DNA from: Alphaproteobacteria bacterium | GTDB taxonomy: Bacteria > Pseudomonadota > Alphaproteobacteria > Rhizobiales > Xanthobacteraceae | Length of the DNA stretch: 50,185 nt | Direction: 5' to 3' | Assembly (NCBI GenBank): GCA_021325315.1 | Contig: JAJPHK010000113.1 | Span: forward strand, 1 to 50,185 | Shown here: in pieces, positions 6,531-50,185 of the stretch | Layout: each line of letters begins with the position of its first letter | Position numbering within the stretch: the first letter of the stretch is position 1 | Notes under the pieces: generated by a model | Told to the model about the DNA's origin: nothing | Database searches by the model: none | Seen by the model: only the letters and a program-made list of their open reading frames with translations | Translations under genes and position numbers: made by a program

Positions 6531-7556
6531 TTACGCGGCTTTCTTTTCGAGATCGGGCGACCAGCGGCCTTCGCAGGCAAGCCCGTTCATGCGGGCGCGA
6601 TGGGCAAAGGCGCTTTGCGCGGCCTTCACGTTCTCGGTTTTACCGGACCACGCCTTTTGGGGCGCAGCCTGCAGTGCGCGGCCATAGGAGAAGGTGAGCT
6701 TCCACGGCAATCCGCCGATCTTGTTCATGGCATCGAGATGCGCCGTCGCTTCTTCGTCGCTCTGGCCGCCGGAGAGGAAGGCGATGCCGGGCACGGCGGC
6801 GGGGACGCAATTCTTGAGGAGGCGAACCGTCTTCTCGGCGACTTCCTGCACGGAAGCCTTCTTCGCGCTCTTCTTGCCGGGGATCGCCATGTTCGGCTTC
6901 AGGATCATGCCTTCGAGCGCGACGCGGTTGAAATAGAGTTCCTGAAAGGTCTCCTTCAGTACCCATTCGGTGACCTGATAGCAGCGATCGATATCGTGAT
7001 CGCCGTCCATCAGCACCTCCGGTTCGACGATCGGAACGAGATTGTGTTCCTGGCAAAGCGCGGCGTAACGCGCCAGCGCATGCGCATTCGCGTGCACGGC
7101 GGTATGCGATGGAATGCCCGCTCCGATATCAATCACCGCGCGCCATTTCGCGAAGCGCGCGCCTTGCTCGTAGTATTTCGGCAGGCGGTCGGCGAGCTTG
7201 TCGAGGCCGACGGTGATCAGTTCGCCCGGGCAACCGGGGAGGGGTTTCGTCCCTTCATCGACCTTGATGCCGGGGATGGAACCTGCCTTCTTGATGATCT
7301 CGACCAAGGGCGTGCCGTTCTTGCACTTCTGCCAAATGGTCTCGTCGTAGAGGATCACGCCGGAGATGTGGTTCTTCATCGCGTCGGTCGCGCTGAAGAG
7401 GAGCTCGCGATAGTCGCGGCGGTTATCCTCGGTGCATTCCACCTTGATCGCGTCGAAGCGTTTTTTGATCGTGCCGGAGGATTCGTCGGCGGCGAGAATG
7501 CCTTTGCCGGGCTGAACCATGGCAACGGCAATTTTGTTCAGCTCAGTGAGGTTCAT
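6531..7556 (-). CDS. Class I fructose-bisphosphate aldolase
   Basis: MVQPGKGILAADESSGTIKKRF, GIKVDEGTKPLPG, LVPIVEPEVLMDGDHDI, AFLSGGQSDEEAT; internal Met chosen. Confidence 0.95.
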   Translation of the reverse strand: MNLTELNKIAVAMVQPGKGILAADESSGTIKKRFDAIKVECTEDNRRDYRELLFSATDAMKNHISGVILYDETIWQKCKNGTPLVEIIKKAGSIPGIKVDEGTKPLPGCPGELITVGLDKLADRLPKYYEQGARFAKWRAVIDIGAGIPSHTAVHANAHALARYAALCQEHNLVPIVEPEVLMDGDHDIDRCYQVTEWVLKETFQELYFNRVALEGMILKPNMAIPGKKSAKKASVQEVAEKTVRLLKNCVPAAVPGIAFLSGGQSDEEATAHLDAMNKIGGLPWKLTFSYGRALQAAPQKAWSGKTENVKAAQSAFAHRARMNGLACEGRWSPDLEKKAA

Positions 7557-7600
7557 CAGACTCTCCCAAGTATTCTCGACTATTTTATCCGAAAGTTTGG

Positions 7601-8794
7601 CTATTTTATCCGCAAAGCCTCGACGCCGGGCAAGGGCTTTCCTTCCAGCCATTCCAGGAAAGCGCCGCCCGCGGTGGAAACATAACTGAACTGGTCGAGG
7701 ACGCCCGCGTGCTGAAGGGCGGCGAGCGTATCGCCGCCGCCGGCGAAGGAACTCAAAAGCCCTTGGCCTGTGAGTTTCGCGACTTCGCGGGCGAGTGTCA
7801 CAGTCCCCGCATCGAAGGGGGAGACTTCGAAAGCGCCCATCGGGCCGTTCCAGACAATGGTGCGGGTTCCGGCGAGCCGCGCCGCGTTAAGCGCGACCGA
7901 TTGCAGGCCGATGTCCAGAATCATCTCATCGGGGCCGACGGCATCGATCATGACCGAGCGCGAGGGCGTGTTCGGCTCAAGCTTCTTCGCGACCGCGGCG
8001 TCGACGGGCAGCACGATGTCGCAATTCTTGGCCTTCGCCTCTTCGAGAATCTTTTTCGCGGTGTCGATCAGATCGGGCTCGCTCAGGGATTTGCCGATAT
8101 TCTTGCCCTGGGCCGCGAGGAACGTGTTCGCCATGGCGCCGCCGATCACCAGAAGATCGACTTTCGCCAAGAGGTTCGACAAAAGCGCGAGCTTCGACGA
8201 AATCTTCGCGCCGCCGACGACAGCGGCGAGCGGCTTCACCGGCGAGGTGAGCGCACGGGTGAGCGCCGAGAGTTCCGCCTGCATGGCACGGCCGGCATAG
8301 GCTGGAAGTTTATGCGCGATGCCTTCGGTGGAAGCATGCGCGCGGTGGGCGGCGGAGAAGGCATCGTTGACATAAAGATCGCCGAGCTTCGCGAGCGCCG
8401 CGACGAATTCCGGATCGTTCTTCTCCTCGCCTTTATGGAAGCGGGTGTTTTCGAGAAGCAGCACGCAGCCGGGATTCAACGCCGCGACGGCTTTTTCGGC
8501 TTCCGGGCCGATGCAGTCCTTGGCGAATTGCACGGGCTTGCCGAGGAGGCCCGAGAGCACCGGGACGACCGGCGCAAGCGATTGCGATTCGTCGTGGCCC
8601 TTCGGTCGGCCGAAATGCGAAAGCAAAATCGCCTTGCCGCCTTTTTCGGTGACGGCGGCGATCGTCGGGATCACCGTGCGGATGCGCGTGTTGTCGGTGA
8701 TGCGCCCACCTTCCATCGGGACGTTCAGGTCGACGCGGATGAGGACGCGTTTGTCTTTTACATCCGCCTGATCGAGCGTTCGAAAAGCCGTCAT
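7601..8794 (-). CDS. pgk: Phosphoglycerate kinase
   Basis: RVLIRVDLNVPMEGGRITDNTRI, LLSHFGRPKG, NDAFSAAHRAHAST, GGGDTLAAL. Confidence 0.98.
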   Translation of the reverse strand: MTAFRTLDQADVKDKRVLIRVDLNVPMEGGRITDNTRIRTVIPTIAAVTEKGGKAILLSHFGRPKGHDESQSLAPVVPVLSGLLGKPVQFAKDCIGPEAEKAVAALNPGCVLLLENTRFHKGEEKNDPEFVAALAKLGDLYVNDAFSAAHRAHASTEGIAHKLPAYAGRAMQAELSALTRALTSPVKPLAAVVGGAKISSKLALLSNLLAKVDLLVIGGAMANTFLAAQGKNIGKSLSEPDLIDTAKKILEEAKAKNCDIVLPVDAAVAKKLEPNTPSRSVMIDAVGPDEMILDIGLQSVALNAARLAGTRTIVWNGPMGAFEVSPFDAGTVTLAREVAKLTGQGLLSSFAGGGDTLAALQHAGVLDQFSYVSTAGGAFLEWLEGKPLPGVEALRIK

Positions 8795-8797
8795 CGA

Positions 8798-9805
8798 TCA
8801 GTCGAGCTTGCCCATCACGACGGCCGTGTCCGCCATGCGGTTGGAGAAGCCCCACTCGTTGTCGTACCAGGACATCACACGCACGAGCGTGCCGTCCATG
8901 ACCTTGGTCTGATCCATGTGGAAGACCGACGAATGCGGATCGTGGTTGAAGTCGATCGAGACGTTCGGCTGCGTGGTGAAGCCGAGGATGCCCTTCAACT
9001 GCTGCTCGGAGGCGCGCTTGATCGCGGCATTCACTTCATCCTTGTCGGTCTTGCGCTTGGCGATGAACTTCAGGTCCACGACCGAGACGTTCGGCGTCGG
9101 CACGCGGATCGCGACACCATCGAGCTTGCCGGCGAGTTCCGGCAGCACGAGGCCGACCGCCTTCGCCGCGCCCGTCGAGGTCGGGATCATGGAGAGCGCC
9201 GCCGCGCGCGCGCGGTACATGTCCTTGTGCACCTGATCGAGCGAGGGCTGGTCGTTGGTGTAGGCGTGCACCGTGGTCATGAAACCTTTTTCGATGCCGA
9301 TCGCGTCGTTGAGCACTTTCGCGACCGGCGCGAGGCAGTTCGTGGTGCAGGAAGCGTTCGAAACGACCTTGTGATCCTTGCCGAGCTTGTCGTGATTGAC
9401 GCCATAGACCACGGTGAGATCGGCTCCTTCGGCGGGAGCCGAGACCAGCACGCGCTTCGCGCCGGCGGTGAGGTGGGCCGAGGCCTTCTCCTTCGAGGTG
9501 AAGATACCGGTGCATTCCATCGCAATGTCGACCTTGAGTTCCTTGTGCGGGAGCTCGGCCGGATTCTTGATCGCGGTCACCTTGATCGGCCCGCGGCCGA
9601 CGTCGATCGTATCGCCGGAGACTTTCACGTCGTTCGGAAAGCGGCCGTGGACAGAGTCGAAGCGGAGGAGATGCGCGTTGGTTTCGACCGGCGCGAGATC
9701 GTTGATCGCGACGACCTCGATATCCTTGCGGCCGGACTCGATGATCGCGCGCAAGACGTTGCGGCCGATACGTCCGAAACCGTTGATAGCGACACGTACA
9801 GTCAT
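8798..9805 (-). CDS. gap: Glyceraldehyde-3-phosphate dehydrogenase, type I
   Basis: [46 protein letters not shown]. Confidence 0.98.
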
Positions 9806-11820
9806 GCTCTCTCCTTGCGCGGCGTTCCGCGCCCTTCTCCTAATGCAGCCGCGGCAGCCGCGACAATCGCTTCCGCAGTAATTCCAAAACGACGGTAAAG
9901 GTCTTTGTAAGGCGCGCTCGCGCCGAAACCGGTCATTCCAACGAAAATTCCGCCGGTGCCGATGATTTCGTCCCAGCCCATGCGGATCGCCGCCTCGCAG
10001 CCGATCTTTACCGGCGCGTCGCCGATGATCGAGGCGCGGTAGTTCGCGTCCTGCTCAAAGAAGAGATCGAGCGAGGGAGCCGAAACCACGCGCGTCGCGA
10101 TGCCCTGTTTTTCGAGCTCGGCCTTCGCGGCCATGCAAAGCGATACTTCCGAGCCGGAAGCGAAGAGCGAGACTTGCGCCTTGCCTTTCGCGGGCGAAAG
10201 CTCGTAGGCGCCGCGCGCGGACAAGTTTTTCTCTTCAAACGCGGTGCGGAGCGCCGGCAAATTCTGGCGCGTGAGCGCGAGCACGCTCGGGCCTTCGGCG
10301 TTTTCGACCGCAAGCTGCCAGCATTCGGCGGTTTCGGTGAGATCGGCGGGGCGGAGCACCGTCAGATTCGGAATCGCGCGCAGCGCCGCGAGATGCTCGA
10401 CCGGCTGATGCGTCGGGCCGTCTTCGCCGAGGCCGATGGAGTCGTGCGTCATGACATGGATCGCGCGAACGCCCATCAACGCCGCAAGCCGGATGGACGG
10501 GCGGCAGTAGTCGGAGAACACAAGGAACGTGCCCGAGAAGGGGATCACGCCGCCATGCAGCGCCATGCCGTTCATGGCGGCGGCCATGCCGTGTTCGCGG
10601 ATGCCCCAGTGCAGGAACTGGCCCTTGTAATTGCCGGGGCAAATCACCGGCATCGATTTCGTCTTGGTGTTGTTGGAGCCGGTAAGATCGGCGGAGCCGC
10701 CAACCATTTCGGGCGCGGCGGCGACAATCGCGCCGAGCACTTCTTCCGACGCCTTGCGGGTCGCGACTTCCTTCGGGTTCTTTGCCGCGTTCTCCTTCAC
10801 CGCGCGAACCGCGCCGGCGAAAGCGGGCGAGAGCTTTCCGGCGAGGCGGCGTTCGAACTCGGCGCGTTTGTCGGCGGGAAGCGCCTTCACGCGCTCGTTC
10901 CATTGCTTGCGCGCGTCAGCCGAGCGCGAGCCCGCCTTGCGCCATTCGGCAAGAATGTGGGCGGGGATTTCGAACGGCGGATGATTCCAGCCGAGCTTCT
11001 CGCGCGCGCCTTTAATTTCGTCGGCGCCGAGCGGCGAGCCGTGTGCGTCGGCGGTGCCCGCCTTCTTCGGCGCGCCGAAGCCGATCGTGGTGCGGCACGC
11101 AATCATCGTCGGCTTGTCGGATTTTTGCGCGCTCGCAATCGCCTTTTCGATCGCTTCCGGATCGTGGCCGTCGATGCGCATTGCATTCCAGCCTGACGCC
11201 TGGAAGCGCGCGACCTGGTCGGTTGAGTCTGCAAGCGAAAGGCTGCCGTCGATGGTGATGCGGTTGTCGTCGAACAGCACGATCAGCTTCGAAAGCTTCA
11301 AATGTCCCGCAAGCGAAATCGCCTCCTGGCTTACGCCTTCCATCAGGTCGCCGTCGGAGCAGAGCGCATAGGTGAAATGATTGACCGCGCCGTCGCCGAA
11401 CTCGGCATTCATGATCCGCTCGGCGAGCGCCATGCCGACGGCATTACCGATGCCCTGACCCAGCGGGCCGGTGGTGGTTTCGACGCCTTCGGTGATGAAA
11501 TTCTCGGGATGTCCCGGCGTCTTGGAATCGAGCTGGCGGAACCGCTTGATCTCCTCGATCGTCATCTTCGGATAGCCGGTGAGATAGAGGAGCGCGTACA
11601 AGAGCATCGAGCCGTGACCCGCGGACAGCACGAAACGGTCGCGGTCGGGCCACTTCGGATCGGCGGGATCGAATTTCAGGAACTTCGTGAAGAGCACCGT
11701 CGCGATGTCGGCGGCGCCCATCGGCAGGCCGGGATGGCCGGATTTCGCCGCCTCGACCGCGTCCATGGCTAAGGCGCGAATGGCGTTGGCCATACGGTCG
11801 TGGTTCGCGCGGGATGTCAC
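9802..11820 (-). CDS. tkt: Transketolase
   Basis: [48 protein letters not shown], thiamine-diphosphate motif, [20 protein letters not shown] start proposed at 11820. Confidence 0.96.
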
Positions 11821-12066
11821 TGGCTGTTTTCTCTCTCGGGGCCTCAAGTGGGTCGGCGAAGGCCGAGGCTAAATCCACAAGGCCATCTCGATCCCAGCGG
11901 GATCGAGGCCGCGGATGGATAACACGCAAGGCCCCGGAGTCAATGTTTGCAAGCCTTTCCGAGGGGTGAAATGCCACGACGATTTTGCATGTCTGGTCAT
12001 AACTTCGCTCCTTCCGTTGACGCAGGATGTTAGCGGACCTTTACTAGCGAGTAGGAGTGAATCGAC

Positions 12067-12339
12067 GTGAGTGCGATGGACGGGGCCCTGCAGCGGCTGG
12101 AAGCCGCCCTCGATGCGCTGGAATCGGCGGTCGGCCAGTCCGCGGCCGATAGCCGGCAGCGTGAGCAACTGGAGAGCCAGTTGCAGGCCTTCGGTCAGGA
12201 CCGCGCTCGACTTTCGGCTGATCTCGAACGCGCGTGCGCGCGGGCCGAGGATCTTGAGGCGACGAACCAGGAAGTCTCCCGGCGACTTGAGCGGGCGGCC
12301 GAAACTATCCGCACCGTTCTGGCTTCGCAGGAACGCTGA
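12067..12339 (+). CDS. DUF4164 domain small coiled-coil protein (GTG start)
   Basis: Short heptad-rich ORF immediately upstream of zapA, arrangement typical of Rhizobiales. Confidence 0.75.
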   Translation: MSAMDGALQRLEAALDALESAVGQSAADSRQREQLESQLQAFGQDRARLSADLERACARAEDLEATNQEVSRRLERAAETIRTVLASQER

Positions 12340-47052: not shown

Positions 47053-47059
47053 GATGTTC

Positions 47060-47163
47060 GTCATTCCGGGGCGCACGCGTAAGCGTGCGAGCCGGAATCC
47101 AGAGGCGCTCGTATATGTATGCGGATTCCGGATAGCCTCGCTTTGCGAGGCTTCCGGAATGAC
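47060..47163. repeat. Palindromic intergenic repeat (GTCATTCCGGGGCGCACGCGTAAGCGTGCGAGCCGGAATCC ... GGATTCCGGATAGCCTCGCTTTGCGAGGCTTCCGGAATGAC)
   Basis: Terminal arms gtcattccgg / ccggaatgac, internal gccggaatcc / ggattccgg, each half with its own stem-loop. Confidence 0.85.
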
Positions 47164-47168
47164 TTTCT

Positions 47169-48089: not shown

Positions 48090-48307
48090 TATAACTCATC
48101 GGTTTAATACAGCGGGCGGCTGCATTCGTCAAATGCCTGTGGATGAAAACGCGGGCCCGGAAAGCAGCGGTTTTGCGAGGGAAACAATTCTGGGAGATAA
48201 ATCACTGTAAAATTTTGTTATTCATTATAATTAATCACTTTTATTTGTTGAATTAATCGATTTAAATGATTAGCGTGAGTTCCGCTTTCAAAACGAAGGG
48301 GTTTGTC

Positions 48308-49780
48308 ATGGCGACGGCAACAAATTCATTCGAACGGACGCGCGAGGGACGCGTCGTTCTGAACGAGGACTGGCTCTCGCTCGCGATCGGGCTGTTCATT
48401 TTCGCGATTGCGATCGCCGGTCTCTCCGGCATCGATTTTCTCGGCTGGGCGGTGAGCACGTCAGTGTGGAAGGATTTCTCCACCGCACTCAATCCGGTCT
48501 CCAAAGTCTACGCATCGCTCGGCGGTTTCGGCGCGCTGATCGCGACCTATGTCGCGCTTCTCGTCGTGCTTTCGATCGGCGTGTCGTTCCTGCAAGCCGA
48601 CGTAAAGCGTTTCGCGCTCGCCTTCACCGGCGTGTTCGCGATCGCCTATGCGTGCTGGATCGTCGGCAACAACGCGCATCTCGCGGCGGTGACGCCCGCC
48701 GACCTGCAGAAATTCGGCATCGGCTGGTCGCTCAAGCTTACCAATGAGGGCGGCTTCGTCGTCGCGCTCATCGTCGGCCTGGTGATCGCGAATTTCTTTC
48801 CGCGCGTCGCCGAATGGCTCAACGAAGCGGTCCGGCCCGAGCTCTACATCAAGATCGCGATCGTGATTCTCGGCGGCTTCCTCGCGCTTACCTTTGCGTC
48901 GAAGCTCAGCCTCGCGGGTTCGCTCCTGTTCCGCGGGCTCGCCGCGATCGCGGAAGCCTATCTCATCTACTGGGCGGTGGTGTATTTCATCGCGCGCAAA
49001 TATTTCGGCTTCAACCGCGAATGGGCGGCGCCGCTCGCATCGGGCATTTCCATCTGCGGCGTGTCGGCGGCGATCGCGACGGGCGCCGCCATCCGCTCGC
49101 GCCCGGCGATTCCGATTCTCGTCTCCTCGCTGGTCGTGATCTTCGCGGTGGTGGAGGTTCTGATCCTGCCGTGGATCGCGAACAATTTTCTCGCGCACGA
49201 GCCGCTCGTGGCGGGCGCCTGGATGGGTCTCGCGGTAAAAACCGACGGCGCGGCGGTTGCGGCAGGCGGCATCACCGAGGCGCTGATCCTCGCGCAGAAC
49301 GCATCGCAAGGCGTACGCTATCAGCCGGGCTGGATCCTCGGCACCACGGCGGCGGTGAAGGTGTTTATCGATATCTTCATCGGCGTGTGGGCGTTCCTGC
49401 TCGCCTATATCTGGACGAACTACATCACCGTCACGGGCGAAAAGGCGCGGGCGGCGGAGATCTGGCACCGCTTCCCGAAATTCATCATCGGCTTCGTGCT
49501 GACCTTCCTGATCGGGCTCTATTTCGCGCTCGGGACGTCGGCCGCGACGCTGCAGAAGGTGACGCCGCTGGTCGGCGAAGCGAACAACTTCCGCGTGATC
49601 TTCTTCGTGCTCACCTTCTTCTCGATCGGCGTGCTCTCGAACTTCCGCAAGCTCTGGCAGGAAGGCTTCGGCAAGCTCGCCGTGGTCTATTTCGTGAGCC
49701 TATTCGGCTTCGTGATCTGGGTGGGTCTGTTGATCTCGTGGCTGTTCTTCAGCGGCGTGAAGCCGCCGCTCGCAAGCTAA
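48308..49780 (+). CDS. YeiH-like putative sulfate exporter family transporter (long form, about 490 aa)
   Basis: GISICGVSAAIATGAAIRSRP and AGAWMGLAVKTDGAAVAAGGITEAL motifs of the YeiH/UPF0324 family; many TMs; internal Met chosen at 48308. Confidence 0.78.
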   Translation: MATATNSFERTREGRVVLNEDWLSLAIGLFIFAIAIAGLSGIDFLGWAVSTSVWKDFSTALNPVSKVYASLGGFGALIATYVALLVVLSIGVSFLQADVKRFALAFTGVFAIAYACWIVGNNAHLAAVTPADLQKFGIGWSLKLTNEGGFVVALIVGLVIANFFPRVAEWLNEAVRPELYIKIAIVILGGFLALTFASKLSLAGSLLFRGLAAIAEAYLIYWAVVYFIARKYFGFNREWAAPLASGISICGVSAAIATGAAIRSRPAIPILVSSLVVIFAVVEVLILPWIANNFLAHEPLVAGAWMGLAVKTDGAAVAAGGITEALILAQNASQGVRYQPGWILGTTAAVKVFIDIFIGVWAFLLAYIWTNYITVTGEKARAAEIWHRFPKFIIGFVLTFLIGLYFALGTSAATLQKVTPLVGEANNFRVIFFVLTFFSIGVLSNFRKLWQEGFGKLAVVYFVSLFGFVIWVGLLISWLFFSGVKPPLAS

Positions 49781-49791
49781 GGGAGGCAAAC

Positions 49792-49941
49792 ATGGCGAAA
49801 ACCGAAATCCAAAGGGAACTGGAGAAGGCGCAGGCCGAGCCGCTACTCCCGATCGAAAAGACGCTGATTGTCTGGAGCCTGGGGATCGGAATCACGCTCC
49901 TCGTGATCCTTGCGCTCTTCAACAAATATTTCCCCATTTGA
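49792..49941 (+). CDS. 49-aa single-TM small protein downstream of the YeiH-like gene
   Basis: gggaggcaaacATG with a strong SD 11 nt after the transporter stop; MAKTEIQRELEKAQAEPLLPIEKTLIVWSLGIGITLLVILALFNKYFPI; appears in the ORF track only as the tail of 48814..49941. Confidence 0.78.
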   Translation: MAKTEIQRELEKAQAEPLLPIEKTLIVWSLGIGITLLVILALFNKYFPI

Positions 49942-50013
49942 AAGTTTCCCGGGCGCGTCTTCGGACGCGCCCGGTGATCCCCCGGTGGCGTTCTCTCCCC
50001 TGACCGGCAACTC

Positions 50014-50042
50014 GCGCCGGCCGAAAGGCTGGCGCTTTTTTT
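50014..50042 (+). terminator. Rho-independent terminator downstream of the YeiH-like operon
   Basis: gcgccggcc-gaaa-ggctggcgc followed by ttttttt. Confidence 0.85.
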
Positions 50043-50109: not shown

Positions 50110-50185
50110 GCTCCCTTCGTCTAGCGGTCCAGGACGTCGCCCTCTCACGGCGAAAACACGGGTTCGAGTCCCGTAGGGAGCGCCA
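50110..50185 (+). tRNA. tRNA-Glu (anticodon CTC)
   Basis: Acceptor GCTCCCT/AGGGAGC, anticodon loop cCTCac between tcgcc/ggcga, T-arm cgggTTCGAgtcccg, encoded CCA at 50183-50185; ends at window edge. Confidence 0.95.

Follow-up and report, generated by a model that had tools for sequence, protein, structure and literature searches.

The locus described here raises two questions: whether a 49-aa ORF lying directly behind the gene of a secondary transporter is a gene, and what so small a protein might do for the transporter. Both reading frames are near the right end of the window, i.e. the whole 50,185-nt stretch of alphaproteobacterial DNA that was analysed. The questions bear on a wider one, since, as far as the literature searched goes, it is not settled how sulfite passes across the inner membrane of sulfite-respiring organisms.

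The transporter gene and the small ORF downstream

The transporter gene (48308–49780, + strand; 490 aa) is preceded by a Shine-Dalgarno-like AAGGGG (48296–48301, + strand), read directly in the sequence, and its start is that of the same-genus orthologue (L004/L134). Against the profile of the PSE family, PF03601, its product scored 71.7 bits (cut-off 24.5; E = 6.6e-20), but it reached only 28.8 bits against TIGR00698, the YeiH subfamily model (cut-off 232.6). The first-pass annotation had seen YeiH-family signatures; kinship holds at the level of PF03601, whereas the score far below the TIGR00698 cut-off makes the protein a divergent relative of YeiH and not a member of its subfamily. Orthologues from several phyla share 56–76% identity. 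In an AF2 model of moderate quality (mean pLDDT 70), the helix pattern suggests about 11 transmembrane (TM) helices plus re-entrant pairs or broken helices, and would be compatible with the layout published for PSE proteins (9 or 11 TM helices together with two re-entrant ones; PMC8396727). The best Foldseek matches of this model were CPA/AT-type proteins (NHA2, CitS and NhaP), with E values of about 3e-3 and TM-scores of about 0.4 or less, which are not significant, and PDB sequence searches detected no solved relative. The length of about 490 aa, earlier considered unusual, was rejected as a novelty: with each outgroup PSE ORF counted from its furthest upstream start, lengths range from 289 to 586 aa around a median of 469 aa, and PSE proteins of the CPA/AT type exist in 9- and 11-helix forms, the latter being PSE_2 (PMC8396727).

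The small ORF (49792–49941, + strand) begins with an ATG 11 nt past the TAA of the transporter gene, on the same strand, behind a strong Shine-Dalgarno sequence, GGGAGG (49781–49786, + strand), that was read directly in the sequence; a purine-rich Shine-Dalgarno sequence also precedes most of its orthologues. It is contained in a 375-aa ATG-to-stop frame (48814–49941) and was hidden by it, as had been pointed out. The deduced protein (MAKTEIQRELEKAQAEPLLPIEKTLIVWSLGIGITLLVILALFNKYFPI, 49 aa) has a charged N-terminus (EIQRELEKAQAEPLLPIEK) and one TM helix, a layout that recurred in 27 of 27 family members, each with N-terminal charges and one hydrophobic stretch (Kyte-Doolittle 2.2–3.1); the charges lie mostly in the N-terminal arm. 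The family motif is EPL[LMN]xxE[KR]x[LM]IxxxxxxG, and E9, E16, P17, L18, E22, L25, I26, G33 and L36 are invariant in an alignment of 15 rows. Scanning 15 members against Pfam and NCBIfam gave nothing near cut-off, including TorE/NapE, CydX and KdpF, and profile matches of the small protein to PsbL (E = 0.2 and worse) were rejected as chance. The gene is assigned to a new family, its product being a predicted accessory subunit. Searches of the 2.94-Mb assembly of the window's genome revealed no further credible copy of the transporter gene or of the small gene, a second small-protein match there (E = 0.52) being ascribed to chance.

Two hairpins follow on the + strand. The one just 3' of the small ORF (49947–49977) is strong and G+C-rich (-27 kcal/mol, z = -5.3) with no T run. 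The other (50014–50035; z of the RNA fold -2.2), with a 9-bp stem and a T7 tail, is predicted to be the intrinsic terminator (50014–50042) at which this two-gene unit ends; because the scan for terminator-like sites found 3 against 3.0 expected in shuffles and is by itself not significant, this call, which agrees with the first-pass annotation, relies on position and the T7 tail. A tRNA-Glu gene (50110–50185) comes after the terminator. The other neighbours, judged by eye, look like ArsR, SRPBCC and MarR genes, of which ArsR and SRPBCC were rejected as co-regulated partners because they were not seen at the same-genus locus L134. An adjacent YeiE-type LysR regulator gene is a common, though not strict, feature and is present at the YeiH loci of Salmonella and Hyphomicrobium; inspection by eye revealed none beside the window pair. 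An imperfect inverted repeat at 47059–47165, which starts with GTCATTCCGGGGCGCACGCG and ends with GGAATGAC, resembles a palindromic intergenic repeat unit.

Conservation of the pair and coding status of the small ORF

Transporter homologues gathered from named genome contigs, relatives and five genome samples had bimodal scores, with an ingroup mostly at 750–900 bits (contig-cut members score lower) and outgroup PSE transporters at about 100–160 bits; a single intermediate, L113, scored 451 bits. The ingroup comprises 29 genomes which, as titled or sampled, belong to Pseudomonadota, Acidobacteriota, Zixibacteria, one Actinomycetota MAG and one Phycisphaerae MAG. Directly downstream of the transporter gene, the small ORF is intact in 27 of these genomes and damaged but recognisable in two (an NN at the junction in L018 and a frameshift in L021). 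The distance between the two genes is -4 to +28 nt at 24 of the 27 loci, including one ATGA overlap, and 47, 84 and 246 nt at the remaining three. By contrast, none of 69 outgroup loci (three with less than 150 nt of downstream sequence) has this small gene behind the transporter. Compared with the outgroup, the orthologous loci that could be assessed (27 of 27 with the small ORF) give a Fisher p of about 1e-24 (computed with 71 outgroup loci), a value to be read with the shared descent of the loci in mind, which makes them not independent.

Co-occurrence is strict. Small-protein searches gave one strong match per genome; 299 Acidobacteria searched separately with the small-protein and transporter profiles yielded the identical 6 genomes; and in these and the other small-protein searches no genome was found with the small gene but without the transporter. 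The search of 27 further genomes (26 of the outgroup and G956, which carries L113) gave no credible copy of the small protein, and a plasmid search returned distant PSE matches only. The two genes are a conserved pair, although conserved adjacency by itself does not prove that their products form a complex.

Two results had been named beforehand as counting against the small ORF, namely a lack of conservation alongside the long transporter and near-neutral substitution ratios, and neither was found. For five phylogenetically independent pairs of close relatives, Nei-Gojobori omega was 0.185 (window/L004), 0.14 (L012/L017), 0.16 (L019/L022), 0.18 (L057/L058) and 0.016 (L087/L091), i.e. 0.02–0.19; summed over the pairs, there were about 59 synonymous changes in 170 S sites versus 33 nonsynonymous changes in 578 N sites. 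The small ORF is a coding gene under purifying selection. Adjacency, co-occurrence and selection support the proposal of the first-pass annotation, a two-gene operon that includes a conserved micro-protein.

In the transporter tree, the ingroup forms one side of a branch with support of 100/96 and a long stem, with the tree program warning of long branches, L113 above all. The divergences of transporter and small protein are correlated (Mantel r = 0.82, 25 pairs), as expected from joint inheritance, so that contact does not follow from this correlation alone. L113 is an intermediate long PSE transporter outside the clade, encoded in the DsrK-bearing planctomycete-group genome G956, and the small gene was found neither at its locus nor elsewhere in that genome. 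This suggests a single gain of the small gene on the stem, or else its loss in L113, which possibly represents the state before acquisition; it also means that a transporter of this type can exist without the small partner.

Genomic context and proposed function

In 8 of 12 acidobacterial genomes, a dsrMKJOP operon has the pair at its 3' end, after dsrP and on the same strand. The pair ends a dsrLC-MKJOP run, and several of the loci then carry genes for a uroporphyrinogen-III methyltransferase and a CbiA/DsrN-like protein. At L139, the order is DsrL-like, DsrM, DsrK, DsrJ, DsrO, DsrP (6894–8051), transporter (8082–9587), small ORF, methyltransferase (9771–10586) and CbiA-like gene (10707–12257); DsrM, K, J, O and P all scored above the NCBIfam equivalog cut-offs there, and homology to this set identified the remaining seven loci. 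Hausmann et al. 2018 (PMC6018796) show four unnamed conserved genes (1–4) in acidobacterial dsr loci, and these may include the transporter and small genes. DsrK above cut-off was detected in 17 of 29 pair genomes versus 2 of 50 controls, all of them acidobacterial and thus matched for that phylum only (Fisher p = 3e-5, computed for the sampled 5 of 6 pair genomes). All 8 Zixibacteria tested and the actinobacterial genome have DsrK, on contigs other than that of the pair. DsrK was not found in the window's genome or in the tested proteobacterial genomes, its nearest pair-bearing relatives, and ten pair-bearing genomes, the window's included, gave no DsrK match at all. Two Acidobacteria (G375 and G417) have DsrK without the pair, which shows that dsr can do without it. 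Two other acidobacterial pairs (L144 and L145, in G362 and G363) are located away from dsr, near genes judged by eye to be of sugar-nucleotide/polysaccharide type, and their genomes have a DsrK homologue below cut-off only.

The proteobacterial context of the pair is variable. At L135, from the window's own family, it has a sulfite reductase alpha gene on one side and, on the other, the genes for a NasA/C-like (nitrate-reductase-like) molybdoenzyme and the siroheme synthase CysG, a row (L135:2–7390) that is possibly a mixed sulfite/nitrite assimilation cluster. TauE/SafE-family genes occur near the pair in three genomes (L142:10206–11141, L149:262–1407 and L153:1759–2796).

We consider it somewhat probable that the pair encodes a two-component sulfite transporter, in which one message would be translated into a long permease of the PSE family and its obligate single-TM subunit of 48–60 aa. 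Sulfite, or a close oxyanion, is the most likely substrate because of the dsr contexts, the DsrK association, the L135 neighbours, the nearby TauE/SafE genes and the sulfite-linked PSE relatives; a CPA/AT-type mechanism would carry it over the inner membrane. Where Acidobacteria, Zixibacteria and others bear dsr, the transporter would manage sulfite handled by DsrAB, with uptake as electron acceptor and release of excess both possible, while in the proteobacterial branch with the window, where DsrK was not found, export of toxic sulfite seems most likely. The small protein is probably oriented N-in/C-out, although its positive-inside signal is weak because the N-terminal arm is rich in both signs. 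Its helix probably packs on the permease and stabilises or gates it, the charged, presumably cytoplasmic N-terminus serving as an anchor or regulatory arm. The earlier proposal of an accessory subunit or regulator fits all the data, the small gene being conserved only with this transporter clade, and stands as a predicted role. A joined-chain AF2 model of L010, with the TAA read as Gln (mean pLDDT 68), was dropped: it says nothing on docking because of its low confidence and because the linker joins the probably periplasmic C-terminus of the transporter to a probably cytoplasmic N-terminus. More tentatively, and with the odds rather against so full a picture, the pair could be a dedicated two-component sulfite permease whose obligate mini-subunit was overlooked through its shortness. 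Such a permease would supply or relieve DsrAB in Acidobacteria, Zixibacteria and others that respire sulfite/sulfate, and would also be used as a sulfite exporter by dsr-less proteobacteria.

Transport of another anion (nitrite/nitrate, sulfate or an organosulfonate) by the same two components appears unlikely but deserves some weight. Nitrite is made possible by the nitrate-reductase-like neighbour at L135, where CysG also flanks the pair; the family was originally named for sulfate export (PMC11582611); and the lack of DsrK in the window's genome, with the variable proteobacterial context, makes the substrate less certain for the window itself. However, sulfite is indicated by the location in eight dsr operons and by the strong association with DsrK, and a characterised PSE relative works in sulfite stress (PMC12880088). 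It is less probable again that the small protein, rather than being a structural subunit, acts separately as a regulator of the AcrZ/MgrB kind, e.g. as a sulfite-sensing or protease-recruiting membrane peptide that controls how much permease is present or how active it is. The conserved charged N-terminus adjoining one TM helix would suit such a peptide, but an obligate subunit would account at least equally well for the strict one-to-one co-occurrence and the nearly constant adjacency, and solo copies of the small gene were not found in the genomes searched. A role of the small protein for the DsrMKJOP membrane complex, with the transporter merely a neighbour, is suggested by the position directly after dsrP at eight loci; it is very improbable given the ten pair genomes without any DsrK match and the failure to find a genome with the small gene alone. 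A chance ORF or non-coding conservation, conceivable for so short a frame, is refuted by the predominance of synonymous changes summed over the five pairs and by conservation of the protein across phyla, and can practically be dismissed.

Relation to known systems

A transporter clade syntenic with dsrMKJOP, with its obligate 49-aa partner, offers a concrete and cheap target for the sulfite-transport question. In many soil and sediment bacteria the pair lies within or beside the sulfite-respiration system, which suggests a testable two-part sulfite transporter, and the small protein adds a new small-protein family for annotation. The transporter family and its long forms were already known; what is chiefly added here is the dsr context. 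No paper describing the pair, or a small partner of PSE transporters, was found in the literature searched.

The closest known system is the PSE family itself (TC 2.A.98; PF03601), which includes enterobacterial and Hyphomicrobium YeiH and Paracoccus SuyZ. YeiH protects Salmonella against sulfite (PMC12880088), the Hyphomicrobium YeiH gene is the most thiosulfate-induced gene (526-fold), and this YeiH, like SuyZ, is thought to export sulfite (PMC11582611, PMC12423496). The window transporter shares with these proteins a PF03601 score above cut-off and a context of sulfur metabolism, and its predicted helix pattern appears compatible with theirs, but falls below the YeiH cut-off, forms its own long-stem clade and has an obligate small partner lacking at the 69 other PSE loci. 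The TauE/SafE (TSUP) sulfite exporters, encoded near three of the pairs, likely have the same substrate but belong to a different Pfam family, and kinship with them was not found.

For the small protein, the likeness to AcrZ with AcrB, a small single-TM protein with a large transporter, is one of analogy only. To our knowledge, AcrZ is not encoded beside the AcrB gene, whereas the small protein described here is encoded beside its transporter and belongs to a family without a Pfam or NCBIfam match. AcrZ is a modulator of the transporter AcrB (PMC7267776). The TorE/NapE 'crutch' proteins of respiratory systems (PMC6134056) are likewise small, have a single TM helix and have their genes next to that of the membrane component that they support, but there is no family match and their partners are NapC/TorC cytochromes, whereas the partner here is a PSE transporter.
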